A stretch of 64,000 bases of DNA from Solwaraspora sp. WMMD792 (GTDB lineage Bacteria > Actinomycetota > Actinomycetes > Mycobacteriales > Micromonosporaceae), in the NCBI RefSeq assembly GCF_029626105.1, contig NZ_JARUBH010000009.1, positions 4,402,001 to 4,466,000 of the forward strand, written 5' to 3'. The position numbers and the translations under genes were made by a program. Below, piece after piece: positions 30,247 through 59,930 of the stretch. A model generated the notes under the pieces. It had not been told where the DNA came from. It was given only the letters and a program-made list of their open reading frames with translations, and did no database searches. The stretch's first letter is position 1, and the number at the start of each line of letters is the position of its first letter.

Positions 30247-30282
30247 CGAAGGGCCGCGCCGTACCACCGGCGTGGCCCTTCG
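30247..30282 (+). terminator. Hairpin terminator after the first coiled-coil gene
   Basis: Arms 30247-30261 and 30268-30282 (CGAAGGGCCGCGCCG against CGGCGTGGCCCTTCG) pair at 14 of 15 positions with a 6-base loop, 50 bases after the stop. There is no T-run, as is common in high-GC actinomycetes. It probably ends transcription of the 416-residue gene. Confidence 0.65.
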
Positions 30283-30479
30283 CGTTCGGTGCCCGGTCCC
30301 CTGCTGTACGTGTCCCTGTCAGCCTGCCGCCCGGGGGCGACGCGCCTGGTCACCGCCGGTGTTGCGGCATACCCGCTGAGCGAATGGTTCACACCTGGCA
30401 AATCATCCGAAGTGACGCGCGTCCTGTCAGGAGCATGGGTATCGCCCCGCAACAGGGCGTTGCGTGTGAGGATGGAGCC

Positions 30480-40969: not shown

Positions 40970-40988
40970 CCCGACGAAGGAGATCATC

Positions 40989-41863: not shown

Positions 41864-43264
41864 TCAGTACGCGCCGCAGCTGGAGCCGCCGTCGACCCGG
41901 TAGACGTGCACGGCGTTGCCGTCGATGAACGAGTCGGTGAACTGGCCGTCGTCGGCGAGCAGGGTGCGGTCCTCGTCGAGCACGGTGATCCGGGCGTCAC
42001 CGACGCACGGCAGTTGGAACGTCGCCTCGGCGACGCTGCCGCCGGCCGAGCTGGCGAGCAGGTAGAAGTGGCCGTCGTACCACTTGGTGGCCAGGTCGAC
42101 TCCGGTGGAGACGCTGGCCACCCCGTCGGCGTACGGGGCGTTGAGCACCGGCGCGAGCCGGGTGATCCGGTCGTTGACCCCAGCCACGGCCGACCGCACC
42201 GGCGCGTAGCAGGGTTCCCGCAGGGCGTGCTGGCTCTGGCAGGGGCCGCTGAAGCTGTGGTTGAAGTAGACGATGCCCCGGGCGCCGTGGATGATGCTGC
42301 TCCAGACCGCCGCGACGACCTGCTCCGGGGCGATCGTCGGGTAGTGCTCCTCGTTGAACGGACGCCCGACCTCGACGAAGCTCCAGACCGGTCGGCTGCC
42401 GGGCGGCGAGACCAGGGACCGGACCCGGTCGACGGTACGGCCGTAGTTCGCGGCCCGGTGGCACAGCTCGGCGGGCAGCCGCTCGGCTCCGTCGACGGTG
42501 GTGAGCTGGTCGGGGTCGAAGAACCGGCCGCCTTCGCTGTGCCCGCAGATGCCACGGTCGGTGAACCAGTAGGTGTCGACCGACACGATGTCGGCGAACT
42601 CGTTGACGAAGCGGGCGGCATCGGCGTCGCTCTGCCAGAACGCTACGCCCTTGCCGTAGTTGACCATCCGCAGCCGCTGGTCGTCCGGCAGCCGGTCGAG
42701 GATGTCACGCTGCACGGTGTAGCCGCACTCGCCGTCGGCCGGTTGGCAGATGTCGCCCTGCCCCGGGAAGTTGCCGGTCCAGGGGTCGTCGCCGGGCCCG
42801 GCCCACATGTCGGCCTCGTCGGAGATCAGCCAGCCGCCGGTCTCGTCACCGTGTTCGCCGATCGGGCTGGTGATCGTGTGCATCCCGGCGGCCCGGACCA
42901 GGTCGAGGTTGGTGGTGCCGGTCAGCTCGACGTAGGTGTTGAGGCCGATCTCGGCGTCCTTGGCGGTGTCGGCGGGGTCGGTGACGCTTTCCAGCCAGAC
43001 GCCGATCGGGAAGAACTCGGGACCGGTGGGCAGTGACGGGGAGAAGCGGTCGTAGAAGTCCGGGCCGCCGTCGACCGGGCGCAGCGTCGCACCGGCGCCA
43101 CCCGCGGTGGCGACCGTACCGGGGGCGATCCCGGCGGCGACCGGACCGCGGACGGTGCCACCGATCGCCCACGCTGTACCGGCGACGACGAGCGCGCCGA
43201 CGACGAGGCTGGCGATCAGGATCCAGCGCCCGCGCGGGCGGCGGGGTCCGGTAGCGACGACCAT
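41864..43264 (-). CDS. Exported GH-like protein of the polysaccharide locus
   Basis: 466 residues; ATG 43264 with GAAAGG upstream. A membrane anchor or uncleaved signal (about 14-35) is followed by a TIM-barrel-like domain with conserved acidic blocks: FFPIGVW (84-90), GLNTYVELT, DEADMW (149-154), NYGKGVAFWQSD, FVEVGRPF (Glu298) and YFNHSFSG. The paired acid positions (DE, then Glu298) resemble acid/base and nucleophile of clan GH-A, though I cannot assign a family. Its C-terminus is a beta-sandwich (about 400-466). It is a paralogue of the C-terminal half of the 56529-58640 gene. Likely acts on glycan outside the membrane. Confidence 0.72.
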   Translation of the reverse strand: MVVATGPRRPRGRWILIASLVVGALVVAGTAWAIGGTVRGPVAAGIAPGTVATAGGAGATLRPVDGGPDFYDRFSPSLPTGPEFFPIGVWLESVTDPADTAKDAEIGLNTYVELTGTTNLDLVRAAGMHTITSPIGEHGDETGGWLISDEADMWAGPGDDPWTGNFPGQGDICQPADGECGYTVQRDILDRLPDDQRLRMVNYGKGVAFWQSDADAARFVNEFADIVSVDTYWFTDRGICGHSEGGRFFDPDQLTTVDGAERLPAELCHRAANYGRTVDRVRSLVSPPGSRPVWSFVEVGRPFNEEHYPTIAPEQVVAAVWSSIIHGARGIVYFNHSFSGPCQSQHALREPCYAPVRSAVAGVNDRITRLAPVLNAPYADGVASVSTGVDLATKWYDGHFYLLASSAGGSVAEATFQLPCVGDARITVLDEDRTLLADDGQFTDSFIDGNAVHVYRVDGGSSCGAY

Positions 43265-43501
43265 GGACGACCTTTCGAACGGTACCTGCCAGCACCGAGG
43301 GCGGCGCCGACCAGCAGTAGTCGGACAACCACCCTGAGCGGAACATCCGATGCTAACAACAGCCGGCGTCGACGACTGCCCGCTTTGTCCACTACAGTCC
43401 GTGTTCGGTGGCCACCTGTCCGGCAACCGACAGTAGTCGAAGCGGTGGTGGCGGCCGGGTACGATCACGCCGGTACCCGACCCCCGCTGCGGAGTTCTCA
43501 C

Positions 43502-44575
43502 GTGATCAACCGTCTCGCGGACCAGGCCAAGGGCCTGGTCCGGTCCCGCCTTACGGCGGCAGAGCTCAACCGGCGGCAGGTCCCGACCTTCCGGACCACC
43601 GACGTACGGACCGGCACACCGACCGTCTACTACCTCGCGCCGGACAACCCGCGGCCCAGCGGCGGGGTACGGGTCATCTATCGCCATGTCGACCTGCTCA
43701 ACGACATAGGCATCCGGGCGTACGTCATGCACAAGGACCCGGCCTTCCGCTGCACCTGGTTCACCAACCAGACACCCGTCGTCGCAGCCACGAACGCCAC
43801 CCTCGGCCCGACCGACATCCTCGTCGTCCCCGAGTGGTACGGACCCGGGCTGAGCGCGATCCCGCGCGGGCCACGCCTCGTGGTGTTCAACCAACGGGCG
43901 TACGACACCTTCGACCACATCCCGTACCCGGATACCCGCCCCGGTGCGCCCTACGCCGACCTGCCCGGGATGACCGCGCTGCTGGCCGTCTCGCACGACA
44001 ACGTCGAACTGCTCAGCCACGCCTTCCCGGACATCCCGGTCCGGTTGACCCGCAACGTGGTCGACCCCGACGTGTTCGCTTTCGGCAGCTGGCCCCGGCG
44101 ACGGCACATCGCGTACGTCGGGCACCGGCGGGCCGACGAACGCGACCAGTTGCTGCACATCCTGCGGTCCCGCCGGGTGCTGGACGGCTGGGAGGTCACC
44201 CGGATAGCCGGACGCACCGAGGAACAGACCGCGGAGATCATGCGCGACTGCGCCGTATTCCTGAGCTTCAGCGACCGGGAGGGGTTCGGCATGCCGCCGG
44301 CCGAGGCGATGTCCTGCGGCGCGTACGTGGTCGGCTACCCCGGCCTGGCCGGCCGCGAGTTCTTCGACCCGGCCCACTGTGCGCCGGTACCCGACGGTGA
44401 CCTGCTGGCCTTCGCCCGCGCCGTCGAGCAGACCTGCGCCGCCTGGGCCAGTGAGCCGGAAACCCTGGCCAAGCGGGCGGCGGCCGCCTCGGCGGCGATT
44501 CGCGACCGTTACACCGTCGCCGGCCTGCGCGACGACCTGACCGCCTTCTACCGCCCGCTGCTGACCCCCGGCTGA
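43502..44575 (+). CDS. Glycosyltransferase, family 4-like (GT-B)
   Basis: 357 residues from GTG 43502. GT-B elements: SGGVRVIYRHVDLLNDIG near 55 (first domain) and the C-terminal donor site CAVFLSFSDREGFGMPPAEAMSCGAYVVGY with the E-x7-E pair. The family transfers sugars with retention from nucleotide donors. The first 30 residues are Arg/Gln-rich. It stands alone between the convergent GH-like gene and the GT2, with a GT-rich promoter region of about 235 bases upstream shared with the GH-like gene. Confidence 0.88.
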   Translation: MINRLADQAKGLVRSRLTAAELNRRQVPTFRTTDVRTGTPTVYYLAPDNPRPSGGVRVIYRHVDLLNDIGIRAYVMHKDPAFRCTWFTNQTPVVAATNATLGPTDILVVPEWYGPGLSAIPRGPRLVVFNQRAYDTFDHIPYPDTRPGAPYADLPGMTALLAVSHDNVELLSHAFPDIPVRLTRNVVDPDVFAFGSWPRRRHIAYVGHRRADERDQLLHILRSRRVLDGWEVTRIAGRTEEQTAEIMRDCAVFLSFSDREGFGMPPAEAMSCGAYVVGYPGLAGREFFDPAHCAPVPDGDLLAFARAVEQTCAAWASEPETLAKRAAAASAAIRDRYTVAGLRDDLTAFYRPLLTPG

Positions 44576-44653
44576 CCGGCCCGCACGGCCCGCCCCGCCG
44601 ATCCCCCGCCGGTCCCCCGCCCGGCGCCGGGGCCGCACCGGCCCGCACGGTCG

Positions 44654-45769
44654 TCAGATGCCGTGCCGGGTCCAGGTGCGGTAACGGGCGTCGTTGCGCA
44701 GTCGACGCTGCACCACGCTGGCGGCGAAGCCCGGCATCAGCGGGGCGAACCGTGGACCGACCGCCCGGCGCCGCTGCAGCCCGGCCCAGTGCGGCAACTG
44801 CTCCGCGGCCGGATACGTCTCCCGGGCGAACTCCACGTACCACTCGACCGGCTCGCGGTCGGTCAGCCGCCGGTCGTAGGCGTGACAGGCCGATTCGAGA
44901 GCCTCGGTGGCCAACGCCCGACGGGCCAGGTCGTGCAGCTCCCGGGCCCGGGGCAAGCTGCCACCGGGACCGTCGAACAGCACGTCGAAGGCGGTCCGCC
45001 GCTCGATCAGGTCGGTCCGCCGGCCGGACGCGGCGGTGACGCTGACGCTGGCCGCGTGTTCCCGGTGCCAGGCCTGGTCGACGCCGTCGACGTGACCGAC
45101 ATCGGAAACCGCCGCCACCCGCATCCAGGCCTCCATGTCGCAGGCGTAGCGCATCCGGCTGTCCCACGGGCCGACCTCGGCGTAGACGCTGGCCCGGACC
45201 ACCGCCTCGGGAGTGGTGATGCAGTTGACGCCCAACCGGCACCGCTGCGCGATCCAGTCCTCGCCGGACCAGATCGTCCAACCGGTGACCTCGGACCGGA
45301 ACTCGGTCGGCACCGCCCCGTGGAAGTGCACCGGATGGCCGTACACCAGACCGACCTCGGGGAACTCGTCGAACAGCCGCATCGCGCGGGTCAGCGCCCC
45401 CGGGGTCAGCAGGTCGTCCGCGTCGAGCCGGACGACGAACTCCCCCGTCGCCACCGCCAACCCGTCGTTGAACGCCACGCAGGGCCCGTGGTTGGTCTCG
45501 TTGTGCACCACGACCAGCCGAGGTTCGTCGGCCCGGAGGGTGGTCAGCACCTGCCGGGTGTCGTCGGTGGAGCAGTCGTCCACGACGACCACCTCGACCT
45601 CGACGCCCTGCTGGGAGAGCGCGCTGCCGATGCTCGACGGCAGGAACCGCCCGTAGTTGTAGCTCGGGATGATCACCGACACCCGTGGCGTACGGGCCGG
45701 ATCACCGGCCGGGACCGGTGCCGGCACCCGGGTGCGGGGCAGCAGCGCGCGGCGGGCTGGCAGAGACAC
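44654..45769 (-). CDS. Glycosyltransferase family 2
   Basis: 371 residues. GTG 45769 is used because AAAGAGG lies 6 bases before it; GTG 45775 would overlap that site. GT-A fold starting VSVIIPSYNYGRFLPSSI, with VVVDDCSTDD (first Asp pair) and RLDADDLL (the DxD). The C-terminal 150 residues (AWHREHAASVSV etc.) belong to the usual acceptor region. Leftward, about 11 bases after the flippase stop, so probably cotranscribed with flippase and GT4. Confidence 0.9.
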   Translation of the reverse strand: MSLPARRALLPRTRVPAPVPAGDPARTPRVSVIIPSYNYGRFLPSSIGSALSQQGVEVEVVVVDDCSTDDTRQVLTTLRADEPRLVVVHNETNHGPCVAFNDGLAVATGEFVVRLDADDLLTPGALTRAMRLFDEFPEVGLVYGHPVHFHGAVPTEFRSEVTGWTIWSGEDWIAQRCRLGVNCITTPEAVVRASVYAEVGPWDSRMRYACDMEAWMRVAAVSDVGHVDGVDQAWHREHAASVSVTAASGRRTDLIERRTAFDVLFDGPGGSLPRARELHDLARRALATEALESACHAYDRRLTDREPVEWYVEFARETYPAAEQLPHWAGLQRRRAVGPRFAPLMPGFAASVVQRRLRNDARYRTWTRHGI

Positions 45770-45780
45770 GGACACCTCTT

Positions 45781-47358
45781 TCAGGGTCGGACCGCCGTGG
45801 CGAGCGGCGTCGTCGGGGCAGGCGGCACCGGCGGGGGCGGACCGGTGGCCGGGCCGCCGTCACTCGATCCACGGTCGTCTGGCTCGCCGCCGCCCGGCTG
45901 GTCGGCCACCTGGTCGGCGACCTGGCCGGCCGCCTTGAGGTCCCGCAGCCGGCGCCGCAGCCAGGGCAGCAACGGCCCGGCGAACGCCACGGTCATCACG
46001 GCACCGCCGGCCAGCAACTGCCACAGCGTGCCCGGCACGGTACGCACCACCAGCAGGCCGAGCGCCACCGCAGGCACCGCCACGGCCAGCGGCAGCACCA
46101 GCGCGCCGGCCAACGCCCGCAGCCGGACCCCGTGCCGACGCAGCGCGAACGCGTACATCGGCAGGATGATCAGCGCGCAGACCAGCGCATGCCCGAACCC
46201 GGCACCGACCAGGCCGTACCAGCGCACGCCGAAGATCACTGCGGGGAAGAGCGCGACCAGCCAGACCACCTGGGCGACGAACAACGCCCGGCTCGCGCCG
46301 ACCGCGATGAGGTAGGTCGCCACCAGGTCGAACAGCACTCGGAACGCCCCGAAGAAGGCCAGACCGGCCAACGCGTCGGCCGCCATCGACCAGCGTTGGC
46401 CGTACAGCAACGGCACCACGACACTGGCCAACCCGGACAGCAGTACGCCGACGAGCAGCGCGACGGTCCAGGTCAACGCGGCGGCCGAGACGAATCCGGC
46501 GGCCTTACGCCGGGGGTCGGTCACGGTGGCGAAGGCCGGCAGCGCCACCGCCCGGATCGCCACCCCGAGGGCGCTCATCGGCCACGTGGAGATGTTGAAC
46601 GCCAGGGTGTAGAGGCCGAGCATCACCGTTCCGGCGGTGGCGCCGACGGTCAGGTGACCGACGTTCATCACCACCCAGGACAGTACGTTGGCGCCGGCCA
46701 ATGGCACGCCGAACCGGATCAGGCTGTGGGCCACCGCCGAGTCGAACCCGAACGTCGGCCGGGACCGGGTCAGCACGAACTGCAGTACGGTCACCATCGA
46801 CTGGGCGACCACCCGGGAGATCGCCAGCGACATCGCCCCGAACCCGAGCAGCACCAGGGCGACCGTGACCGTGGTGCTCACCACCAGGCTGGCACCGTCG
46901 AGGCCGAGCTGGGCCCGTTGCCGGAACTCCCGCTGCATGACCGCGTACGGCACCACCGACAGGCCGCTGAGCACCAGGGTCAACGACATCACCTGCACCA
47001 CCGGGGTGGCCTGCGGGCTGTCCATCGCCGCCGACACCGGCCCGGCGGCCAGCGACATCGCACCGGCCAGGCCCAGGCTGGTCAGCAACGAGATGGTGGT
47101 GACGGTGCCGGCGCGGCCCTGCACCCCGTGCCGGATGATGTCCGCGCTCATCCCGAGGTCGGCCAGGGACATCACGATGGTCTGCACGGTCAGGGCGACC
47201 GCGAAGACACCGAACTCCTCCGGCGCGAGCAGCCGGGCCAGCAGGACGCCGACGCCGAGGCTGCCGATCCGCAGGGCGATGCTGTTCAGGGTGCTCCACG
47301 CGAGGGCGCGCTTGACCCGGGCACCGAGCGGGGCCGGTGCGGCTGCGTCAGCTGTCAC
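45781..47358 (-). CDS. Polysaccharide flippase (Wzx/PST-MATE family)
   Basis: 525 residues from GTG 47358 with GGGAG upstream. About fourteen hydrophobic spans, the first at ALAWSTLNSIALRIGSLGVGVLLARLL with the family's LLAPEEFGVFAVALT motif. It flips undecaprenyl-linked repeat units to the outer face. The tail (about 480-525) is Pro/Gly-rich and charged. It overlaps the upstream GT4 by 11 bases. With the polymerase at 53613-54983 and the chain-length protein at 55003-56223 it completes a Wzx/Wzy/Wzz set. Confidence 0.92.
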   Translation of the reverse strand: MTADAAAPAPLGARVKRALAWSTLNSIALRIGSLGVGVLLARLLAPEEFGVFAVALTVQTIVMSLADLGMSADIIRHGVQGRAGTVTTISLLTSLGLAGAMSLAAGPVSAAMDSPQATPVVQVMSLTLVLSGLSVVPYAVMQREFRQRAQLGLDGASLVVSTTVTVALVLLGFGAMSLAISRVVAQSMVTVLQFVLTRSRPTFGFDSAVAHSLIRFGVPLAGANVLSWVVMNVGHLTVGATAGTVMLGLYTLAFNISTWPMSALGVAIRAVALPAFATVTDPRRKAAGFVSAAALTWTVALLVGVLLSGLASVVVPLLYGQRWSMAADALAGLAFFGAFRVLFDLVATYLIAVGASRALFVAQVVWLVALFPAVIFGVRWYGLVGAGFGHALVCALIILPMYAFALRRHGVRLRALAGALVLPLAVAVPAVALGLLVVRTVPGTLWQLLAGGAVMTVAFAGPLLPWLRRRLRDLKAAGQVADQVADQPGGGEPDDRGSSDGGPATGPPPPVPPAPTTPLATAVRP

Positions 47359-48562
47359 TACCGCTCCCGGCCGCGGTCCGCCCGGCGGCGAACCGCTGTC
47401 GGGCCAGACTCGCCTTGAAGTTGAGCAGATGGGCGGTCGGATGGGCCATGGCTCCGGCCCGGCGCGGCAGGTTCAGCCGTTGCTCCACGGCGCGGGCGTA
47501 GATGTCCGTCTGCCGCCGGCCGGCGGCCTGCAGACTGAACCGCTCGACGACGGTACGGCGGCCGAACTCGCCCAGCTCGGTCCGCTGCCGCGGGTCGGTG
47601 GTGCCGAGTTCGGTGAGCGCGGCGGCGACCCGGCCGGTGCCGTCGGTGCCGTCGCCGAGACCGTAGAACCCCTGGTCGAGAAAGACCGGCAGGGTCTGCG
47701 GGGTGAGCGGTAGCCAGAACCCCTGCTCGCCCTGCACGACGACCGGCTTGGCGAAGGCCATTGCCCGCAACGCCGACGACCCCATGCCGATGACGATGTC
47801 GGCGGCGGCGTACGCGTCGTGCGGGTCGAGCATCGCGCCGGTGAGGGTGACCACCTCTGCGCCCCGCTCGGCGTTGGCCTTGTCGGCCGCCTGCTGGATC
47901 TCGGCGCGGGCCTCGCCGTCGCCGACGATCAGCAGCCGCATCCGCAGCGCCGGGTCGATGCCGATCATCGCCCGGGTCGCGGCGAGCAGTCCTTCGAGTT
48001 TGAGTGCCGCCGCCAACCGGGACACCGACACCACGGCGATCTCGTCGGCGGCGATGCCGAGGGCACGCCGGGCCGGCCCGGGATCGGTGACCGGGGCGTT
48101 GGCGTCGGTGTCGATGGGCGGTTCGATGACGTGCACCTCGGTCCGGTGCGGGCGTTCCTGGGCGGCGATCTGCTCGGTGCCGACGATCAGCGGCAGGTGC
48201 CGGGGCACCCAGGCCGGGACCTCCATGGAGAGCACGGTGACCACGAGCGGCACCCCCTGGCGCAGGTACGCGCCGTAGGCTGCCTCCAGGCTGGGTGCCC
48301 ACTCGTAGGCGTGCACCAGGTCGATGCGGCGGTGCCGGACGACGTCGGCGATGGCGGCGACGTTGCGCGGTGACGGCGCCTCGCCCTTCGGCGGTGCCTG
48401 GACGAACTCCAGGCCCCACTCGTCGACCATGCTCCGCAGCTCGCCGTCCGGACCGTAGATGATCACCTCGTGCCCGAGCCCGGCCACTGTCGCCGCGATC
48501 TCGATGGCGTTGATCTGGCTCCCGCCGATCTCCATCGTGTGCAGGCAAGTGAGGATACGCAC
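47348..48562 (-). CDS. Glycosyltransferase family 4
   Basis: 404 residues. N-terminal TCLHTMEIGGSQINAIEIAATVAGLGHEV is the GT4 acceptor-domain start; C-terminal donor site VSVSRLAAALKLEGLLAA and AYAAADIVIGMGSSALRAMAFAKPVVV are clear GT-B signatures, though the usual ExxxxxxxE is GxxSSxxRAMA-like. Starts at ATG 48562, soon after a strong hairpin. AAAGGGAC upstream is its ribosome site. It begins the leftward GT4-flippase-GT2 group. Confidence 0.88.
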   Translation of the reverse strand: MRILTCLHTMEIGGSQINAIEIAATVAGLGHEVIIYGPDGELRSMVDEWGLEFVQAPPKGEAPSPRNVAAIADVVRHRRIDLVHAYEWAPSLEAAYGAYLRQGVPLVVTVLSMEVPAWVPRHLPLIVGTEQIAAQERPHRTEVHVIEPPIDTDANAPVTDPGPARRALGIAADEIAVVSVSRLAAALKLEGLLAATRAMIGIDPALRMRLLIVGDGEARAEIQQAADKANAERGAEVVTLTGAMLDPHDAYAAADIVIGMGSSALRAMAFAKPVVVQGEQGFWLPLTPQTLPVFLDQGFYGLGDGTDGTGRVAAALTELGTTDPRQRTELGEFGRRTVVERFSLQAAGRRQTDIYARAVEQRLNLPRRAGAMAHPTAHLLNFKASLARQRFAAGRTAAGSGSDS

Positions 48563-48575
48563 CTAGTGTCCCTTT

Positions 48576-48626
48576 CAGTCGCGGCGAAGCCGCCCTGCCG
48601 ATGATTCAACGGCTTCGCCGCGACTG
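48576..48626 (-). terminator. Perfect 17-bp inverted repeat between DUF4082 protein and GT4
   Basis: CAGTCGCGGCGAAGCCG (48576-48592) and its exact complement CGGCTTCGCCGCGACTG (48610-48626) flank a 17-base loop. It begins 3 bases after the stop of the 1568-residue gene and ends 13 bases before the GT4 start. Probably a terminator or attenuator separating a long exported-protein transcript from the GT4 group. Confidence 0.7.
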
Positions 48627-48629
48627 CCC

Positions 48630-51600: not shown

Positions 51601-53336
51601 GCGACCAGCCCGCCGCCGGCGTCGGAGGCGGTGCCGGTGACCGTGACCGGCGCGCCGTGGGCCACGGAGCTGCCGTCGGTCGGTCCGGTGATCGTCGCGG
51701 TGGGTGCCAGCACGTCGGCGGACTGGCTGGTCACCACGATGCCGCTCATCGGCGTGGTCGGCGCCGCGCCCATGTCAGCGAAGAGGTTGACCGTGGCCTG
51801 CTGGATCGCGTCGTCGGCGGGCGCACCCGAGCCACCGTCGTGGTAGGCGTCGAGCCCCCACGCCCACTGGATGGTGCCGGCCCCGAAGACCAACGCACCG
51901 CTCGGTGCCCGGTACATGGTCATGTGGTGGGTGGTGTCCCCCGGCTTGTTCTCCGGGCCGTAACCGACCAGGTATTCAGGGGTATGGCCGGTGGTGGTGG
52001 AGAGCCGGAAGGTGCCGGCCGGTCGGAAGCCGTTGTCCAGGTCCTCGTTGGACTCGTAGCCGACGGTGTGCGGCGCCAGAGTGGCGGTCTGGCCCGGAGC
52101 CAGCTCGGCCACGCCGGTGTGCCGCCAGAACCGCAGCCTGCCCTGCTCGGCGGGGACCTGCATGGCCAGGTCGGTGTTGTTGGCCATGTAGAGGTTGCCG
52201 ACCAGCGCGTTCTCCGGCTCGCGCACCTCGCCGGTCGGGAAGCGTGGGTCACGCCACACGCCGGTCCACTCGTCCGACGGGTCGATCCGCGCGTTGTTCC
52301 AGGTCTCCTTGTAGCAGACCAGGGTGCGGTACGGCGTACCGTCACCGTCGACGCTGTCCTCCCAGCGGACCTTCCAGTAGACCTCGTTGCCGGTGAAGAA
52401 CGCCAGGTGCACTCCTGCGTCGCGGGCCGCCTCGACGTTGGCCCGCTGCTGCGGGGACCAGTACTCGTCGTGCCCGACGGAGACGTACACCCCGTGGTTG
52501 AGCAGCAGTTCACCGCGGACGTCCGCGTCGAGCCCGCTGATGTAGCTGACGTCGTATCCGTTGCGCTCCAGGAAGCGGATCATCGGATACTCGTTGGCGA
52601 AGAGGAAGTCGCGCCCCTGCTGAGCGCCGCGGGTGGCGAACGGCCGGTTGTAGCTCAGCTTGTAGGCGCGGTACGCCGGACCTTCGCCCCAGTAGAAGTC
52701 CGCTCCGCCGTAGCGGTTGTACGCCTGCCAGGTGGTGTCGGAGGTCTGGAACACCAGCTGCGAGGTGCTGGTGTCGTCTCGCACGATGAACGGGATATGG
52801 CTGTCACCGCCGGTGTCCGAGCGGATGAGTCGGGCGATGTAGACCCCGGAGACGGCGTCGGCCGGCACGTCCCAGGTAGCGCCGACCTGCCAGGTACCGC
52901 AGTCGAAGATCTGGTTGTCGGTGGCGCGCACGCAGTCCGCGTCGGTGTTGGCCGCCAACGGCAGGCTCGGGGTCAGCGTGGCCCACTCCCGTGCGCCGTC
53001 GCCGCCGTACCAGCCGAGCCGGTAGACCTTGATCGTGTACGCGGACGCCTCGGTGCGCACCTTGAAGCCGATTTGTTCCCCTACGTTCACGCTTATCGAG
53101 GTCGCAAAGCCCTGGATCGTGGGATCGCCGACACCGGAAATGTCCCACACCGAACTCGGCGTTCCCGACTTGCTGTTCTCACAGGCAATCACGTTGACCG
53201 GAGGTGCGCACGGATCAGTGGATGCGGATGCCGCTGGCATCGCGATCATCAGGGTCGCCATCATGACGATGGCGGTCGCGACGGCGGCGAAGTGCCGACT
53301 GCCACGATCAACAAATCTAAATACGCCCGCCCTCAC
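48630..53336 (-). CDS. Giant secreted protein: DMF-beta-like domain, Ig-like domains and four DUF4082 modules
   Basis: 1568 residues; GTG 53336 with AAGGGAC 6 bases upstream. Signal peptide 1-39 (cleavage near ASAS-TD). Then an N,N-dimethylformamidase beta-subunit-like domain (about 62-525; VGHDEYWSPQQR, FFTGNEVYWKVRWE, THHMTMYRAPSGALVFGAGTIQWAWGLD), an Ig-like domain (539-638) and DUF4082 modules at about 640-810, 920-1074, 1199-1352 and 1409-1568. Big_5-type domains (812-918, 1096-1195) and Pro/Ser/Thr linkers separate them. DUF4082 is a carbohydrate-binding-like beta-sandwich by family annotation. Modules 2 and 3 share a 265-bp identical stretch. Likely cell-surface or secreted glycan-associated protein. 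Enzyme function of the first domain is unproven. Confidence 0.82.
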   Translation of the reverse strand: MRAGVFRFVDRGSRHFAAVATAIVMMATLMIAMPAASASTDPCAPPVNVIACENSKSGTPSSVWDISGVGDPTIQGFATSISVNVGEQIGFKVRTEASAYTIKVYRLGWYGGDGAREWATLTPSLPLAANTDADCVRATDNQIFDCGTWQVGATWDVPADAVSGVYIARLIRSDTGGDSHIPFIVRDDTSTSQLVFQTSDTTWQAYNRYGGADFYWGEGPAYRAYKLSYNRPFATRGAQQGRDFLFANEYPMIRFLERNGYDVSYISGLDADVRGELLLNHGVYVSVGHDEYWSPQQRANVEAARDAGVHLAFFTGNEVYWKVRWEDSVDGDGTPYRTLVCYKETWNNARIDPSDEWTGVWRDPRFPTGEVREPENALVGNLYMANNTDLAMQVPAEQGRLRFWRHTGVAELAPGQTATLAPHTVGYESNEDLDNGFRPAGTFRLSTTTGHTPEYLVGYGPENKPGDTTHHMTMYRAPSGALVFGAGTIQWAWGLDAYHDGGSGAPADDAIQQATVNLFADMGAAPTTPMSGIVVTSQSADVLAPTATITGPTDGSSVAHGAPVTVTGTASDAGGGLVAGVEVSTDGGGTWHPATTGTHTWTYEFLPTDIATQVVLARAVDDSGNLGAPSDPVALSVSGPYSLFGQAVPDTPAFVETDNGRADGEPLSTQPAVEVGVRFTPQIDGLITGLRFYKGEGNGGEHRGTLWTNGGSVLATAVFTDETETGWQQVSLPTPVPVSAGTSYVVSYFAPEGRYASDGGYFLADHVSGPLLAPATEGTVGNGVYREDGPGFPNNSWGSTNYYADVTFVTADDAPPTVSSTVPIADAANVPADVTPSIVFSKPVDETTIDFTLVGPADEPVPGAVSYDGAARRATFTPAVPLTEQTAYTATVTARDEADVPMNAPYSWSFTSTFSDQVVTLFETGATPQTTASGESLPVEVGVKFTPSVDGEVVGMRFYRGPGNTGSQVGRLWPVGGGAPLAEVTFPEGGGTGWQSAAFAAPVAVSAGTTYVLSYYAPNGNYAFDVGFFDSEYVRGPLSAPAGDNGVYQYGSGGGFPTDTYGSANYWIDPYFLPTGTLSSPSPSPSPSGRPDESGPAVTATVPTPGATGVAAEAVASALFDTDIDESSLEFQLVDAAAEPVAGAVAYDGATRLATFTPDTPLRSLHTYTASVRASSDGTTMAQPYTWSFTTTYGDEVVTLFEPDAVPQQSSVGESDPVEVGVKFTPSVDGEVVGMRFYRGPGNTGSQVGRLWPVGGGAPLAEVTFPEGGGTGWQSAAFAAPVAVSAGTTYVLSYYAPNGNYAFDGGFFGSGYSRGQLSAPAGDNGVYRYGSGGGFPTGTYNSANYWVDPLYVPGAGDADPDPTPTTSPSPTPGTSPSPSTAPSPTGSPTPTGSPSPSPEPTPSPTEPSAPPVSIFGPQDVPAAVNWADQDAVEVGVRFRADVAGQVTGVRFYKGPANTGTHRGSLWTADGVRLATAVFTDETESGWQTVTFDQPVPILANTTYVASYHTSVGQYAVTANQFAETELDRAPLHVLVGGGVYHYDPYGWVFPGHSVNHNYWVDVVFTPNS
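49424..49688. repeat. 265-bp perfect direct repeat, copy 1 (DUF4082 module 3)
   Basis: Identical base for base to 50261-50525, 837 bp away, inside one gene (about residues 1216-1304 of the giant protein). Flanking DUF4082 sequence differs, so the identity points to recent duplication or gene conversion. Confidence 0.95.
50261..50525. repeat. 265-bp perfect direct repeat, copy 2 (DUF4082 module 2)
   Basis: Second copy of the repeat at 49424-49688 (about residues 937-1025 of the giant protein). Recombination between copies would delete 837 bp, or 279 codons, in frame: one DUF4082 module plus one Big_5 module. Confidence 0.95.
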
Positions 53337-53612
53337 CGAATGTCCCTTCAGGAGCCAGCCCGACGCGATACCGCGTGCCTCCCCCAGCTACGCAGCGCCG
53401 ACGCTACCAGCGTGAGTCAAGCTCACAACCGGGCATGTATCTGACCCTTGACGCGACCCGGACAGCCCGCCCATCGCCCATTCGGACAACTGGCCCCAGG
53501 CAATGCGTAATGATCTGCATTCACACGGTTAATCGATAGACAATCATTGAGGTGCCGGATCGACGACCGACGGCGGTTGACCCACCCTCGGGCGCGGGTG
53601 CCGGTGCCGTCG
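53337..53612. promoter_or_regulatory. Upstream region of the giant DUF4082 gene
   Basis: 276 bases between the polymerase stop and the giant gene. The stretch 53500-53560 is AT-rich for this window and probably holds the promoter. No specific boxes could be assigned with confidence. Confidence 0.4.
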
Positions 53613-54983
53613 CTACGAACCGAACCACCGAGGGGTCGACGTGCGCACCTTGAGCGCCGGGTGGCTGAGTCGCCACACCGCACCACACATACCCACCATG
53701 AGTGACATCGCCGTGGCGTAGGTGCTGAAGCTCAGTGAATCGAAGGTGAAGCCTGCCGCGATCGCCACCAGCTGCACCGCGACGAGGATGGAACAGAGGT
53801 GCCGGTCACGCTCCGACGTCGACCTGCGCCGGGCGAGCAGCGTGACCACGATCGCGGTGACGTGCAGTGCGGCGAGCACCGCGACGCCGACCACGCCGTT
53901 GGTCAGGGCGAAGGCGAGCCACTGGTTGTCGAGGTACTGGTACTGCGGGGACACCCAGGTCCCGGTCCCCCGACCGAACCACGGTCGCTGGCTGAAGTAG
54001 TAGCCGACCATCTCGTACCGCTCGGTCCGCGAGGTGATACTCGGGTCCGTGCTCGCCCCAAGGAACATGTTGGTGATCGTGGTGACGAGTGACGGCTTCA
54101 CCACCGCCATTCCGGCGAACATGACCAGACCCAGCGCCATCATGTTGTAGCGCATCCGCCACGCCCAGGTGGGCATCAGGACGAGCAGCACGATCGCCAA
54201 CGCCACGAATCCGGTCCGGGACATCGTCGCCGGGATCGCCGCCGCGATGAGCAATGCCAGGAATGCGAACATCTGCCGCTGCCGGGAAGTGGCCGAAAAA
54301 CGTGCAAAGTGGATCGCGAACGGCAGCGCCATCGCCATCAACAGACTGAACTCGATGTAGTGGAAGGTTGTGCTGGGCACCCGTACGCCGCCGCCACGGA
54401 TTTCCAGGCCGACGACCCACCCTTTCATCTGCAAACCGGGCACCCGCATGTACTGGGTCAGATCAAAGTACAGAAACGCCTGAATCAGCCCGACCACGGC
54501 GACAAAGGCACAGCAGTAGACAAACACCCGCAGTACGCCGTCGAGACGGTCCCAGTTGGGCATGCCGTCGGCGGTCAACAGGATCACCCCGGAGATCGCC
54601 GCTGCGGTCAGCATCCAGCGGTCCGCCGAGTTCGCCTCCATCACCGTCAGCCCGCGGAGGAACCCGATGGCGTACGACAGCAGCATCGACAACAGGAAAG
54701 CCAGGATCGCCCACCGCAGCGGCTGCGGGCCGGTGAGCACCAACCGGGAGTTGAGCCGGGCGGTCATCCACCAGAACCACATCAGAATCGCCACAACCAG
54801 CGCCGGACGCCCCAGGTCGGTCATTCCAGGCAGAATCAGGTGCGACGGGATCAGCGTCAGCAGGCAGACCATGAGCGACAACATGACTGGTGCGTCGATC
54901 CTGGTCAGCCGGCGCCGGGTGATATAAGTGCGCTCGGCGATCCACGCTGGTTCGAGGTCTGCCGGGTGCACCCCGGATGACAT
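53613..54983 (-). CDS. Polysaccharide polymerase, O-antigen ligase/Wzy family
   Basis: 456 residues from ATG 54983, 19 bases after the Wzz-type gene. About eleven hydrophobic spans with the large periplasmic loop typical of Wzy/WaaL proteins; the loop before the last spans contains RTERYEMVGYYFSQRPWFGRGTGTWVSPQYQYLDNQWLAFALTNGVVG, with the family's GxGxG and D-N-x-x-L pattern. It polymerises lipid-linked repeat units outside the membrane or ligates glycan to an acceptor. In a Gram-positive context polymerisation is likelier. Cotranscribed with the upstream chain-length gene. Confidence 0.88.
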   Translation of the reverse strand: MSSGVHPADLEPAWIAERTYITRRRLTRIDAPVMLSLMVCLLTLIPSHLILPGMTDLGRPALVVAILMWFWWMTARLNSRLVLTGPQPLRWAILAFLLSMLLSYAIGFLRGLTVMEANSADRWMLTAAAISGVILLTADGMPNWDRLDGVLRVFVYCCAFVAVVGLIQAFLYFDLTQYMRVPGLQMKGWVVGLEIRGGGVRVPSTTFHYIEFSLLMAMALPFAIHFARFSATSRQRQMFAFLALLIAAAIPATMSRTGFVALAIVLLVLMPTWAWRMRYNMMALGLVMFAGMAVVKPSLVTTITNMFLGASTDPSITSRTERYEMVGYYFSQRPWFGRGTGTWVSPQYQYLDNQWLAFALTNGVVGVAVLAALHVTAIVVTLLARRRSTSERDRHLCSILVAVQLVAIAAGFTFDSLSFSTYATAMSLMVGMCGAVWRLSHPALKVRTSTPRWFGS

Positions 54984-55002
54984 CACCGGGTCCTGGCCTC
55001 GG

Positions 55003-56223
55003 TCATCGTGCCTGGCTGCCGTTCTTGGACGTCTCCGGCGGCGTCCACTGCTCACGGCCGGCTCCGGCCTTGGGCAGGATTATCGTCGCGTCGTCGCGGA
55101 CCGCGCGAATCACCGCGGTCTCGTCGTTGGCCGACGGCGCGGCCGGCTGGTGGGGGGCCGACTGCGACGTGCCGGGCTGCGGCGTGCCGGGCGACGGTGT
55201 GCCGGGCTGCGGCGTGGCCGGCTTCGATCCGGCGCGCTCCTCGCCTGCCCCGTCGGCCCGGTCGTCGACCGCGCGGAAGGTCAACGAACCGTTGCCGACC
55301 AACCCGCCGACCGGTACCTGGCCGCCGGCCAGTCCGCTACCGGCCACCGGTGCCTCGCCCGGTGCAGACCCGGCACCCTGGCGCTCCTCCGGACGGTTCT
55401 CCCGCCGGCCTTCCTGACGCCCCTGCGAGGCGTTGCCGGAGCTGTAGACACCGCCGGGCTTGCTCGCGCCGTCGCGGTCGCTCGCCCTCGGGCGCGGGAC
55501 CGGTTGCGGGCGCGACACCGACCGGGTCTGATCGACCCGCCCGGCCATCGGCGGGATGGCGATCGTCTCATCGGTGCCAGCGGTGACCGGCACACCGGCC
55601 GCGGGTCGCGGCCGGCGGCGCCGCAGCAGACCGTCGATACCGATGGTGAGCGCCGCGCTGAGCAGGACGCCGACCCCGGCGACCGCGATCATCGCCCGGT
55701 TGACCTTGGAGTTGGCCTCCTGGATGTTGTCGCCCCGGTCGAGACGGCGAGCGGTGATGAAGCTCTCCTCGCTCGCGCCGTAGTCGGCCTGCAGCCCGAC
55801 CACGCTCGCCTCCAACCGGCGGACGACCTCCTCGGTCGTCTCGGTGGCCTGGTCCTCGGACTCGCCGACCACCTCGATCGTCATGATCGGCTGCTGGTTG
55901 TCGAGGGTGATCGCGACGTTCTCGCTGAGGCCGGCGGCGTCCAGTTGCTTGAGCACGGCCTGGTCCTGCACGGTGAGGGCAGCGGCCCGGCTCAGCGATC
56001 CCAGTCCCAGCTCCAACCAGGGGTTACGGGGCGTAACCGGGGCATCCTCGTCCGGGGCGGTGTTGGCCGCGGTGGGCGGGATCAGTTGAACATAGGATGT
56101 CGCGATATAGTCCGGTTCGACGCTCATCCGGGTCCATCCGGCAGCCGCTACCGAGATGAGCAGCAGCGGCGTCGCGACGTACCAGCGCCGGAACAGCAGT
56201 TTGGTGAGATCCCAAAAGTCCAC
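55003..56223 (-). CDS. Wzz/chain-length determinant protein with long Pro-rich tail
   Basis: 406 residues; GTG 56223 with GGAAGGA upstream. Two membrane spans frame the extracellular domain: about 13-30 (FRRWYVATPLLLISVAAAG) and about 176-198 (MIAVAGVGVLLSAALTIGI). The extracellular part is short (about 145 residues), with a coiled-coil-like segment. After the second span comes a 200-residue cytoplasmic tail, rich in Pro, Gly, Arg and including PGTPSPGTPQPGTS repeats. No Walker motifs are present, so this is not a fused BY-kinase. It should set chain length with the polymerase, which follows it by 19 bases. Confidence 0.82.
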   Translation of the reverse strand: MDFWDLTKLLFRRWYVATPLLLISVAAAGWTRMSVEPDYIATSYVQLIPPTAANTAPDEDAPVTPRNPWLELGLGSLSRAAALTVQDQAVLKQLDAAGLSENVAITLDNQQPIMTIEVVGESEDQATETTEEVVRRLEASVVGLQADYGASEESFITARRLDRGDNIQEANSKVNRAMIAVAGVGVLLSAALTIGIDGLLRRRRPRPAAGVPVTAGTDETIAIPPMAGRVDQTRSVSRPQPVPRPRASDRDGASKPGGVYSSGNASQGRQEGRRENRPEERQGAGSAPGEAPVAGSGLAGGQVPVGGLVGNGSLTFRAVDDRADGAGEERAGSKPATPQPGTPSPGTPQPGTSQSAPHQPAAPSANDETAVIRAVRDDATIILPKAGAGREQWTPPETSKNGSQAR

Positions 56224-56528
56224 TGCTGTCCTTCCATTGGGTGGCGAGGTCGGGGCGCTCGTCTTCCATCGTATGGCCAGCCGAGAAGCATGAAGGTACG
56301 GCGTGGCACGTCGAGCCCTCCGCCGGGTTCAGTGTCCGGCCGGGCGCGGCACCTCCGCAAGCCTCCGACCGCCGTCCCATCCCGGACATATGTCCTGTTA
56401 CGCCGCACCGAACGACCGAGCCGCGCCCTGAGTCGCCAACACGACAGCGCCGACTCGGCCGTCAGGGGGACCGACCAATGGGCCGGGTGGACGCCCTGCA
56501 GCGTCCACCCGGCCCGTCGGATCGAACC
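56224..56528. other. Intergenic region with strong hairpin
   Basis: 305 bases between the GH-like fusion (stop at 56529) and the Wzz-type gene. It holds the hairpin at 56480-56515 and, near 56227-56233, the ribosome site of the Wzz-type gene. I see no gene in it. Confidence 0.6.
56480..56515 (-). terminator. Hairpin terminator after DUF4082-GH fusion gene
   Basis: Perfect 14-bp arms GGGCCGGGTGGACG (56480-56493) and CGTCCACCCGGCCC (56502-56515) with an 8-base loop, 14 bases downstream of the stop codon of the fusion gene on the minus strand. A strong stem without T-run, typical of this GC-rich genome. Confidence 0.8.
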
Positions 56529-58640
56529 TTACGGCGTGATCTTGTAGATGTGGTACGTGTGTTCCTTCGCGAAGGTGTCCCGGATCGCACCACCGCTGAT
56601 CGGCACCGAGCGATTTTCGAACAGCACCTCGGCGGTGTCACCGGTCACGCCGGGCGGCAGCGCCAGCGAGTGGCCGCCGGTCGGGGTGTCCTTGCCGAGC
56701 ATCGCGAAGACGTAGAACGAGCCGTCGTGGGCCTTGAGCATCGTGTCCAGCCCGTTGTTGAACTCCCACTCGTACGACTGGGTGTTCAGCACCGGCGCCA
56801 GGCTGGTGATGCGCTTGTTCACCTCGGCAACGGCCGGCCGGACCGCGTCACCGCACCGCTCCCGCAGCACGTGCTGGGAGATGCACGACCCGCCGAAGTT
56901 GTGGTTGAAGTACTGGATGCCCCGCGCCTCGTTGATCACCGAGTTCATCACCGCACCGGTGATCTGCTCACCGGTGATGGTCGGTGCCCAGTCCTCGGTG
57001 AACGGGTGCCCCACCTCGACGAAGGCCCACACCGGCTGCCGCTTGCCGTCCATCGCGTCGAGTTCACGCATCCGCTGCATGGTCAGCCCGTAGTTGGCCG
57101 CCCGCCGGCAGTTGTCCTTGTTCACGCCGTACGTCGGGCCTTCCGCCGGGGCGGTGCAGACGTGCGGGTCGGTGTACCAGTAGATGTCGTTGGAGACCAC
57201 CGAGCTGAAGCCGTTGACGAACTTGCCGGCGTCGGAGTCGGACTGCCAGAACATCACGCCCTTGCCGTAGTTGGCGTAGCGCAACCCACGGTCACCGGAC
57301 GGAACGGTGCCTGACTCCTTCTTCATCACGTCCAGTCCGCAGCCGTCCCGGCTTGACGTGCAGATCGGGCCCTGGCCGGGGTAGTTTCCGGTCCACGTAC
57401 CGTTGCCCGGCCCGCCCCACATGTCCGCTTCGTCACCGATCACCCAGCCGACGCTCTCGTTGCCCCGGTCGCTGAACGGCTGCGGGATGAAGGCGTACAT
57501 GTCGTTGCGCCTGATCAGTGCGACATCCGACTGATCGGTCAGCATGACGTAGGTGTTGAGGCCGGCCGCCTTGTCCCGGTCGATGTCCTGCTGGGTGTAC
57601 ACACCCTCGTACCAGACGCCGATCGGGAAGAACGACGGATCGGTCCAGCCGGAGGCACGGGCCTGCGGGAAGTTCGCGTAGTACGCGGGGCCACCCTCCC
57701 ACGGCACCCGGGGCAGGTCGAGCACGGCGGGCGTACCGCCGGTCGGCGAGGCCGACGGGCTGGCCGACGGCGTAGCAGTCGGACTGGCCGACGGCGACAG
57801 CGACGGCGACGGCTCAGCGGAGGCCGTCGGCGACGGCGTCGGTTCCGGCTGTTGCGACCCGGTCGGCTCGAAGGCGAGATCGACCCAGTAGTTGCTGGCC
57901 TTCCAGGTCTGGCGGGGGAAACCACCCGATCCGTAGGCGTAGACGCCGGCGGTGCCGTCGGCCCGCAGCGGACCGGCGGACACCGGTCGTTCGAAGTAGC
58001 GCTGGGTGGCCCGGTACCGGCTGGTGTGGTACGAGGCGATGTACACCTCGCCCGCCTCGACCTCGACCGGCTCGGGCAGCGCGACGTGCTGCCACCCGGA
58101 GCGGGACTCCCGTTTCGGTACGGCGCTCGCCAGTCGCTTGCCGTCGGCGGACCACAGGTTGACCCGGTGTCCGCCGCGGTCGCCCTTGGCCTTGAGGAAC
58201 CGCACCGCGGTGACCAGTCCGTCGCGGTCGGCGGTGAAGCGCACACCGAGCTCCACCGGCCGGGTGTCCGGGTCGACCGGCACCCGGGACACGTCCGCCT
58301 CGGCGAACAGCGTGTAGCCGTCGACCTGTTCCCCGGCGACCGAGGCGGTGACCACCGTGGCGGTGGCGAGGAAGCTGAACACCACCGCGCCGATCATCAT
58401 CAGCCGGCCGCGCCGACCGGTCGGACGACGCAGCAACCGCCGCCGACCCCGCCCCGACCCGGCTACGCTCGCGTGCCGACCGGCCGGGCCCGGCCCATGG
58501 TCAGCGACGGGACGTGGCGACGGGCGACCGGCCCGACGGGCACGCGGCGACCCGGGTAAACCGGGCGAACTTGCCGTAAACGATCCCGGGAACGGATCGT
58601 CCCGCCCCCCGTCCGGCTCGAAAGAATCCTTGCTCACCAC
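56529..58640 (-). CDS. Membrane-anchored DUF4082-GH-like fusion protein
   Basis: 703 residues using GTG 58640, which has AGAGGT 9 bases upstream; an earlier start at 58706 is possible. A charged cytoplasmic leader (1-80) precedes one membrane span (about 81-101). Outside are one DUF4082 module (about 108-260), a Ser/Pro/Ala linker (265-300) and a GH-like domain (about 310-700). The last is paralogous to the 466-residue protein: GVWYEG (341-346), DEADMW (403-408), NYGKGVMFWQSD, FVEVGHPF (Glu542), YFNHNFGG. It links the two module types in one gene and suggests extracellular binding and processing of the same glycan. No catalytic activity has been shown by sequence alone. Confidence 0.8.
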   Translation of the reverse strand: MVSKDSFEPDGGRDDPFPGSFTASSPGLPGSPRARRAGRPSPRPVADHGPGPAGRHASVAGSGRGRRRLLRRPTGRRGRLMMIGAVVFSFLATATVVTASVAGEQVDGYTLFAEADVSRVPVDPDTRPVELGVRFTADRDGLVTAVRFLKAKGDRGGHRVNLWSADGKRLASAVPKRESRSGWQHVALPEPVEVEAGEVYIASYHTSRYRATQRYFERPVSAGPLRADGTAGVYAYGSGGFPRQTWKASNYWVDLAFEPTGSQQPEPTPSPTASAEPSPSLSPSASPTATPSASPSASPTGGTPAVLDLPRVPWEGGPAYYANFPQARASGWTDPSFFPIGVWYEGVYTQQDIDRDKAAGLNTYVMLTDQSDVALIRRNDMYAFIPQPFSDRGNESVGWVIGDEADMWGGPGNGTWTGNYPGQGPICTSSRDGCGLDVMKKESGTVPSGDRGLRYANYGKGVMFWQSDSDAGKFVNGFSSVVSNDIYWYTDPHVCTAPAEGPTYGVNKDNCRRAANYGLTMQRMRELDAMDGKRQPVWAFVEVGHPFTEDWAPTITGEQITGAVMNSVINEARGIQYFNHNFGGSCISQHVLRERCGDAVRPAVAEVNKRITSLAPVLNTQSYEWEFNNGLDTMLKAHDGSFYVFAMLGKDTPTGGHSLALPPGVTGDTAEVLFENRSVPISGGAIRDTFAKEHTYHIYKITP

Positions 58641-59819: not shown

Positions 59820-59930
59820 AACCACGATGCTTCCATTCACGGACGATGCGACAACCAGTCGAATGGGCAACCTCACTATCGCCTAGCTGACACCGATTGG
59901 CCCATCCGGTGGACCACTACGCCGAGTACG

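Follow-up and report, generated by a model that had tools for sequence, protein, structure and literature searches.

Exported glycosidase-like, DUF4082 and dimethylformamidase-like proteins of a Micromonosporaceae Wzx/Wzy locus probably act on the polysaccharide of their own locus

Most known glycosidases encoded in exopolysaccharide (EPS) loci come from Gram-negative biofilm systems. In the available portions of the papers on PgaB (GH153) and PelA, the EPS locus comes with a glycosidase directed at the polymer of that same locus; in PgaB, this glycosidase is paired with a deacetylase domain (PMC5933820, PMC9894940). Since 2025, one case from the sporangium of Actinoplanes has been added: according to the available part of that report, GimA and GimB of Actinoplanes missouriensis degrade the sporangium-matrix polysaccharide, which is attributed to the adjacent Wzx/Wzy-type imp cluster, and they cut it at different positions (PMC12691653). 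The same part of the report describes Micromonospora as lacking Gim homologues (PMC12691653). In the locus analyzed here, a pair of glycosidase-like proteins is accompanied by a third, multidomain protein. The genes present and their order, the domain composition, the predicted folds, the invariance of catalytic-type residues and the recurrent linkage to Wzy across actinomycetes were computed directly. From these we infer, with a probability of about 0.68, that the three proteins form a dedicated extracellular set acting on the polysaccharide of the surrounding Wzx/Wzy locus, a set which would bind, cut and trim the cell's own matrix.

The window (the whole stretch of DNA analyzed, 64 kb) contains a Wzx/Wzy locus in which a flippase, a polymerase, a chain-length protein and glycosyltransferases occur together. 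Three open reading frames of 466, 1568 and 703 residues, all on the reverse strand, were found as described in the original prediction: the GH-like protein GHa (466 aa, 41864..43264), a protein of 1568 aa (48630..53336) and the DUF4082-GH fusion GHb (703 aa, 56529..58640). GHa and the 1568-aa protein are probably exported, with N-terminal hydrophobic segments at residues 15-33 and 16-34, respectively, and GHb (segment at 80-98) is probably exported or membrane-anchored; the 703-aa start of GHb is nested in a 725-aa frame, and the sequence is kept from about there in the same-genus loci L019, L020 and L023. The predicted interleaving with polysaccharide genes is supported by Pfam: between GHa and the 1568-aa protein lie a GT4-like glycosyltransferase (396 aa, 43385..44575, forward strand; Glyco_trans_1_4), a GT2 glycosyltransferase (373 aa, 44654..45775, reverse), a Wzx-type flippase (525 aa, 45781..47358, reverse; Polysacc_synt_3, PF13440, E 3.9e-52) and a GT4 glycosyltransferase (404 aa, 47348..48562, reverse), and between the 1568-aa protein and GHb lie the Wzy polymerase/ligase (480 aa, 53613..55055, reverse; Wzy_C, PF04932, E 9.1e-15) and a Wzz-like chain-length protein (406 aa, 55003..56223, reverse). 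The Wzz-like protein had no match in a Pfam search on its own and was recognized through its homologue alignment, 5 of the 13 members of which matched Wzz (PF02706, best 4e-7). Beyond GHb follow a GT2 glycosyltransferase (Pfam; 326 aa, 58896..59876, reverse) and a glycosyltransferase of the WecG/TagA/CpsF family (59931..60869, forward; PF03808, E 4.5e-58), with homologues in 46 and 69 of 80 GH loci, respectively. A hexapeptide acyltransferase, a Gfo/Idh/MocA dehydrogenase, two DegT aminotransferases and a PglD-like acetyltransferase (32457..38658, no single strand assigned) presumably supply the precursor of an N-acylated amino sugar. The trio and the Wzy, Wzx, Wzz and GT2 genes occur in the same order in three same-genus loci and in genome G020; in locus L107, two glycosyltransferase genes had no match.

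The original prediction held that the three proteins share domains pairwise, which was borne out for two of the pairs: GHa and GHb have the GH-like domain in common (shuffle z 141), including the DEADMW, NYGKG and FVEVG blocks, and GHb and the 1568-aa protein share DUF4082 (z 47), but nothing was detectable between GHa and the 1568-aa protein (z < 1). The GH-like domain had no convincing sequence-family match in Pfam, NCBIfam or PDB. The GH5 model (PF00150) matched neither GHa nor GHb at E <= 0.1, nor 13 family members at E <= 1, and the sole GH name among these members was GH42 (1/13, Pfam 0.067), in a list where unrelated families score alike. The structure of the domain, modeled with a pLDDT of 88.9, is a (beta/alpha)8 barrel with its eight strands in barrel order, followed by a C-terminal beta-sandwich. 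The Foldseek matches listed from the PDB all fall among glycoside hydrolases and related sugar enzymes (best E 3.5e-10), with fucosidases, BT_1012/GH140, GH5 and GH30 near the top and alpha-amylases among them. Fucosidases and alpha-amylases belong to clans other than GH-A and TM-scores are only about 0.3-0.5, so that the fold search by itself does not single out GH-A. The GH140/GH5-type clan GH-A enzymes (5MSY/3KZS, 4QFU), which with the fucosidases are among the best neighbors, also combine a barrel with a beta-sandwich, but they have only 12-14% identity to the GH-like domain, TM-scores of at most about 0.5 and no sequence-profile match.

The expected acidic pair was located in the barrel. 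In the model, candidate carboxylates lie after strand 4 (Glu150 of GHa, 42815..42817, reverse strand; proposed acid/base) and at the end of strand 7 (Glu298, 42371..42373, reverse; proposed nucleophile), a placement as in the retaining glycosidases of clan GH-A; the equivalents in GHb are Glu404 (57429..57431, reverse) and Glu542 (57015..57017, reverse). Glu150 and the preceding Asp149 are invariant in 110 of 110 aligned rows (105 different sequences), and Glu298 in all 109 rows with a letter at that position. Clan GH-A enzymes usually have Asn directly before the acid/base Glu, but this family has Asp in all 110 rows. In a quick tree, which has several long branches, GHa and GHb fall into different supported clades, the latter with copies from Actinoplanes, Micromonospora, Nonomuraea and Amycolatopsis, and a recent local duplication was rejected on this basis. 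Within this clan GH-A-like family, which Pfam does not contain, GHa and GHb would be paralogues of ancient origin, and they would cut the polysaccharide by a retaining two-glutamate mechanism (Glu150/Glu298 and Glu404/Glu542), probably at two different linkages, which would set chain length or free polymer and cells in growth, sporulation or dispersal. Long open frames upstream of the GH gene in seven relatives gave only DUF4082 in Pfam (2/7); the remaining ones may be high-GC open frames. A family name sought in plasmid annotation led to one match, an Arthrobacter plasmid without annotation.

The linkage to polysaccharide genes, the second check on the original prediction, recurs in other genomes. 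We compared 80 GH loci; among the 66 with full flanks, 63 have a Wzy homologue near the GH gene (median distance 2.5 kb). For 16 genomes, hand-picked among those whose loci were known beforehand to contain Wzy, a single Wzy match was obtained per genome, and the listed positions place it about 10 kb or less from a GH gene in every case (20 GH matches altogether, of which one, in G151, is on a different contig). A class sample chosen independently of this question had GH in 5 of 296 genomes, all five with Wzy within 10 kb; one of the five is the window's own genome, and another, G220, has positions identical to those of G161, a genome already encountered. Of the 24 GH genes in the window's own family, 22 are no more than 20 kb from Wzy; a Wzy homologue is present in 16/16 genomes with GH versus 63/134 others. 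Three Arthrobacter loci (L034 and L035 with full flanks, and the shorter L042) have GH but no Wzy match, and such copies outside recognizable EPS loci would suit enzymes that scavenge nutrients from foreign polysaccharides and sit in EPS loci by chance or co-transfer. This explanation is highly improbable in view of the Wzy linkage (63/66, and 5/5 in the class sample, own genome included), of the gene order conserved in the relatives read, and of the ten Arthrobacter neighbors scanned, among which Pfam named no sugar-uptake or catabolism gene; one of the ten is an ABC ATPase of no assigned substrate. The neighbors are peptidase, dioxygenase, amino-acid permease, histidine kinase, ABC ATPase, lipid kinase and PhzF-type genes and one gene without a match, a set untypical for polysaccharide loci. 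That the orphan copies form catabolic loci, for which sugar-uptake genes were expected, was not supported by these ten genes.

DUF4082 occurs once in GHb (57864..58298, reverse) and four times in the 1568-aa protein (50910..51329, 50118..50561, 49281..49724 and 48639..49085, all reverse). Copy 4, at the last of these positions, was modeled as a beta-sandwich (pLDDT 95.9). Its best structural matches are PHR domains (E 2e-5) and phage baseplate or fibre proteins, and the first sugar-binding module, CBM35, comes at rank 9 (E 3e-3); the DUF4082 sandwiches may tether the proteins to the cell's own polysaccharide. In the class sample, DUF4082 lies within 25 kb of Wzy in 30 of the 37 genomes with listed DUF4082 places (places among the matches listed, entered by hand, as also for the DMFA2 counts below). 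All 14 of the GH-less loci fetched carry DUF4082 joined to a beta-helix-like domain, and no such domain was found in GH loci (0/80 and 0/12). It seems that relatives swap the GH for a differently shaped, beta-helix-like enzyme on DUF4082. This bears on whether GHa and GHb could instead act as transglycosylases or as attachment enzymes, linking the completed polymer to the cell surface or to DUF4082 proteins or anchoring it there: such activities occur among clan GH-A retaining folds, the N-terminal hydrophobic segments of both could be uncleaved anchors, and in 63 of the 66 full-flank loci the GH gene sits among synthesis genes. Most known beta-helix enzymes are lyases, hydrolases and epimerases, so that the effector of the GH-less loci fits cutting better than joining, and we consider the joining enzymes distinctly unlikely.

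Pfam assigned DMFA2_C, Big_7, two Big_5 and the four DUF4082 domains to the 1568-aa protein, the first and the last of these in agreement with the original prediction. Its DMFA2_C domain (51843..53036, reverse; PF20254, 349.6 bits against a Pfam cut-off of 27) is by sequence homologous to N-acetyl-beta-phenylalanine acylase and dimethylformamidase (DMFase), with PDB profile matches to 8huy (6.6e-12) and 6lvb (5e-5). DMFase has a 2-Tyr-1-Glu iron site with a catalytic His and requires a small partner subunit for activity, according to the available part of its description (PMC7686228). Tyr440, His519 and Glu521 of DMFase align with Tyr215, His289 and Glu291 of the 1568-aa protein; Y399 lies outside the 6lvb HMM alignment, and its counterpart, the second Tyr, is likely Tyr206 by way of 8huy. 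The metal-type residues (His, Glu and one Tyr) are invariant in 15/15. DUF4082 repeats and Ig-like domains resemble a surface or adhesin protein, and the GH-like and DMFA2 domains might then lack catalysis and serve the matrix as a polymer-binding scaffold or as adhesin parts; mere binding would require neither these invariant residues nor two glutamates invariant in both paralogue clades, which makes this very unlikely.

Where a DUF4082 is listed no more than 4 kb from a DMFA2_C gene, that gene lies within 20 kb of Wzy in 34 of 41 cases, versus 0 of 79 where none is listed. DMFA2 is present within the flanks of only 18 of the 80 GH loci, so that the full trio is not general. In these 80 loci, DMFA2 showed no association with DegT, PglD, hexapeptide or MocA genes (Fisher p 0.4-1.0, shared ancestry ignored); gene-content support for de-N-acylation is thus confined to the 64-kb window, and this line of support was dropped. 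Homology weakly suggests that DMFA2_C could be a metal-dependent amidase stripping N-acyl groups off the same polymer, the least certain step, which we put forward tentatively. If true, a DMFase-fold enzyme would represent a class of polysaccharide deacylases unlike the NodB type, known from PgaB and PelA. That actinomycete Wzx/Wzy loci generally carry a modular matrix-editing kit, with a DUF4082 grip, a depolymerase fold suited to the locus (either the GH-A-like barrel absent from Pfam or a beta-helix enzyme) and a de-N-acylating metal amidase of the DMFase fold, is a speculative extension and rather unlikely.

Taken as a set for processing the cell's own matrix, the glycosidase-like family absent from Pfam, DUF4082 and the DMFase-type domain would extend such processing to several actinomycete families, connect each locus with the cutting fold it uses, suggest a testable function for DUF4082 and for many proteins without a name, and offer a possible source of enzymes dispersing actinobacterial matrices. 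DMFase and N-acetyl-(R)-beta-phenylalanine acylase (6LVB, 8HUY) have the homologous domain, with His-x-Glu and one Tyr of the metal site in common, but they are catabolic amidases and to our knowledge lack DUF4082, whereas the 1568-aa protein is probably exported, bears repeats and is tied to EPS loci. The deacetylase fold of PgaB and PelA differs from DMFA2_C, and we know of no Wzx/Wzy pathway in these systems. They are Gram-negative, and the available portions of the papers do not mention DUF4082 (PMC5933820, PMC9894940). The open-access literature searched held no described system with the present combination, as the original prediction had supposed; the close functional precedent is GimA/GimB with imp, where, in the available part of the report, there are likewise two paralogous secreted glycosidases from the Micromonosporaceae and gimB adjoins the Wzx/Wzy-type cluster (PMC12691653). 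As described there, the Gim enzymes belong to GH5 (IPR001547) and have a galactose-binding-like domain at the C-terminus, a description that sets them apart from GHa and GHb, which have no GH5 model match; the Wzy candidate of imp is the Alg6/Alg8-like ImpE (PMC12691653), as opposed to PF04932 here, and the present locus adds the DUF4082 and DMFA2 proteins. The best reading, by analogy, is that the trio works like GimA/GimB, PelA and PgaB but is built from other families.

The three open reading frames of the trio were found on the minus strand with the positions and lengths given in the original prediction: a GH-like protein of 466 residues (GHa, 41864-43264), a DMFA2/DUF4082 protein of 1568 residues (48630-53336), and a DUF4082-GH fusion of 703 residues (GHb, 56529-58640). 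Pfam assigned DMFA2_C, Big_7, two Big_5 and four DUF4082 domains to the 1568-residue protein and one DUF4082 to GHb; GHa and the C-terminal half of GHb had no Pfam match, and neither GHa nor GHb had one in NCBIfam. GHa and GHb are 46% identical across their common domain, and the proposal that the three proteins share domains pairwise held for two of the three pairs and failed for the third. Each protein has a single N-terminal hydrophobic segment, from which we infer that the trio is probably exported.

The trio is interleaved with genes for a Wzx-type flippase, a Wzy_C polymerase and three glycosyltransferases (GT), as identified by Pfam. The protein labelled Wzz in the original prediction had no family match itself, and 5 of the 13 members of its homologue alignment matched PF02706. 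Upstream are genes for a hexapeptide acyltransferase, a Gfo/Idh/MocA dehydrogenase, two DegT aminotransferases and a PglD-like acetyltransferase, which together typically yield N-acylated amino sugars. Two coiled-coil-like proteins are encoded just upstream of these sugar-precursor genes (28946-32396), one DivIVA-like and the other (670 aa) apolipoprotein-like, both matches being below the cut-off. A 339-aa protein (N-terminal hydrophobic segment, no Pfam match) and a DUF6492 protein (39950-41855) accompany the locus in several relatives of the same family. The region 12000-18200 is very GC-rich (about 75-76%) with raised AT skew, and holds open frames of 1406 and 1060 aa.

In an AlphaFold2 model of the GH domain, made from a 13-row alignment (pLDDT 88.9, pTM 0.91), eight strands are arranged in barrel order, with a beta-sandwich after them. 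Glu150 of GHa (Glu105 in the model) lies immediately after strand 4, and Glu298 (Glu253 in the model) at the end of strand 7. In an alignment of 110 rows, 105 of them different, Asp149 and Glu150 are invariant (110/110), Glu298 is present in 109/109 rows, and cysteines 173, 180, 240, 268, 342 and 352 are each conserved in at least 95%, as would fit a disulfide-bonded exported protein. Fucosidases, BT_1012 (GH140), and GH5 and GH30 enzymes stood near the top of a Foldseek search of the PDB (best E 3.5e-10), with alpha-amylases lower in the list and TM values of only about 0.3-0.5; a profile search of PDB sequences gave no convincing match to the domain (best E 0.27). GH42 was matched weakly by one of 13 members (E 0.067), at a level that unrelated names in the same list also reached. 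We read the domain as a putative retaining glycosidase or transglycosylase whose family has no entry in Pfam or NCBIfam.

The GH family (E <= 0.001) was found in 16 of 150 evenly drawn genomes of Micromonosporaceae, the window's own family, with two copies in all 7 genomes of the same genus (the window's own included) and in one other, G020. Among 12 relatives' loci read for synteny, the whole set is present in the same order in L105 and L106 (same genus) and in L108 (the locus of G020); L107 (same genus) has the set without matches to two of the GT genes, and the remaining loci have parts of it in common with the window. Named bacterial genomes were scanned for the family as well, and of the 133 relatives found the best 80 loci were retained, all from Actinomycetota except L099, a MAG labelled Sphingopyxis whose GH gene reflects either transfer or mis-binning. 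DUF4082-GH fusions account for 14 of 84 named GH copies (Micromonosporaceae, a Rhodococcus-type clade and a Microbacterium).

The GH gene is closely linked to the polymerase (Wzy homologues at E <= 1e-6). A homologue of the window's Wzy is present in 63 of the 66 GH loci of at least 20 kb, at a median distance of 2.5 kb. The exceptions are L025, with Wzy about 19 kb from GH, L034 and L035, together with the shorter L042; the scanned neighbours of GH in L034, L035 and L042 are, as far as Pfam names go, unrelated to polysaccharides. In 16 genomes chosen among the Wzy-positive loci, the single Wzy match lay, by the listed positions, within about 10 kb of a GH gene in every case. The own-family and class samples were not selected for Wzy: in the former, 22 of 24 GH genes have Wzy within 20 kb (the contigs that carry the remaining two are 23 and 15 kb long), and Wzy occurs in 16/16 genomes with GH against 63/134 without it (p 2e-5, ignoring shared ancestry); in the latter, GH occurs in 5 of 296 genomes, with Wzy within 10 kb in all five (these include the window's own genome and G220, whose positions are the same as those of the already counted G161). 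All 80 loci taken together, Wzy was found in 70, GT2_326 in 46, DUF4082 in 26 and DMFA2 in 18. The most constant transferase was the WecG/TagA/CpsF-type GT (window 59931-60869; 69/80, against 51/80 for Wzx), which may define an early repeat step.

DUF4082 was detected in 38 of 150 own-family genomes and in 45 of 296 class-sample genomes; in the latter sample, Wzy accompanies it in 38/45, against 26/251 genomes without DUF4082, and in 30 of the 37 genomes with listed DUF4082 places, Wzy lies no more than 25 kb from one of them. The domain was modelled as a beta-sandwich (pLDDT 95.9, 37-row alignment). Among PDB structures it comes nearest to PHR domains (E 2e-5), with phage baseplate and fibre proteins next; because CBM35 ranks behind these (rank 9, E 3e-3), sugar binding is suggested mainly by genomic place. 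Two further DUF4082 places, scoring identically, lie on small contigs in the window's own genome (G000:C4:1190-1594 and G000:C8:30204-30608) and are possibly a repeated element. We found no functional study of DUF4082 in the open literature, the only mentions found there being in two tables: a Methylococcus secretome table with a DUF4082 entry, and an Actinoplanes SE50/110 table of genes that a sigma factor upregulates, where a DUF4082 gene with a flippase and a GT2 gene close by belongs to a cluster labelled NRPS.

In class-sample genomes that lack GH, DUF4082 genes of 500-800 residues lie within 25 kb of Wzy in at least 16 genomes among the matches listed. We examined 14 of these 16 loci (L117-L130; G308 and G356 were left out), and in all 14 DUF4082 is followed, mostly after a Pro/Thr/Ser-rich linker, by the same kind of C-terminal domain (16 ORFs with this make-up, e.g., L118:1888-3582; three genes in tandem at L121:174-5035). 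Pfam Beta_helix matched 3 of 10 scanned C-terminal domains, one over the cut-off (E 1.5e-10), and the others were assigned as beta-helix-like by alignment with these three. The profile of this domain matched nothing in the 80 named GH loci and nothing in the 12 own-family loci with GH (five are in both sets). Of the 19 own-family genomes with DMFA2 and DUF4082 near Wzy and no GH, 12 were tested: their loci held no GH family member, and a beta-helix protein was encoded as separate ORFs in nine (eight strong, one at E 1e-8) and absent from three, i.e., 9/12 GH-less against 0/12 GH loci (p 3e-4, ignoring shared ancestry). The fusions and the mutual exclusion therefore point to one putative grip domain, DUF4082, carried on either of two candidate cutting folds, one taking the place of the other in EPS loci. 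This swap is the strongest argument that GH may depolymerise the local polymer, although lineage effects could contribute.

DMFA2_C occurs at 120 places in 74 of 150 own-family genomes. Where DUF4082 lies within 4 kb, 34 of 41 places are within 20 kb of Wzy, against 0 of the other 79 (among the DUF4082 matches listed; a few of the 79 may have a weak DUF4082 copy nearby). In the PDB, the DMFA2 profile matched N-acetyl-(R)-beta-phenylalanine acylase (8huy, E 6.6e-12) as well as dimethylformamidase (DMFase; 6lvb, 5e-5). The GSHPEY/GHDEY alignment equates His289, Glu291 and Tyr215, invariant in 15/15, with DMFase His519, Glu521 and Tyr440; Tyr399 falls beyond the 6lvb alignment, and Tyr206, also invariant, probably corresponds to it, judging by 8huy. 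The iron of DMFase is bound by Y399, Y440 and E521, and H519 matters for catalysis (PMC7686228). DMFA2 showed no association with DegT/PglD-type genes, so an amino-sugar substrate is unsupported by gene content.

The predicted role of the trio on the polysaccharide of the locus is supported by gene content, Wzy linkage, predicted folds and invariant residues: DUF4082 would bind the polymer, GHa and GHb would cut it, and DMFA2 would trim N-acyl groups. In Actinoplanes missouriensis, two GH5 paralogues, GimA and GimB, dissolve the sporangium matrix, one of them being encoded beside a Wzx/Wzy-type cluster, and they are reported to act at two linkages (PMC12691653). Because GHa and GHb are ancient paralogues, comparison with GimA and GimB suggests that they, too, may cut two linkages. 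The window's set would work in like manner, but its GH domain has no GH5 match, the Wzy is of another type, and DUF4082 and DMFA2 are added. PgaB and PelA are Gram-negative analogues (PMC5933820, PMC9894940), and PgaB likewise pairs a deacetylase with a glycosidase. What is novel in the window's set is the swapping of modules, together with the DMFase-type domain.
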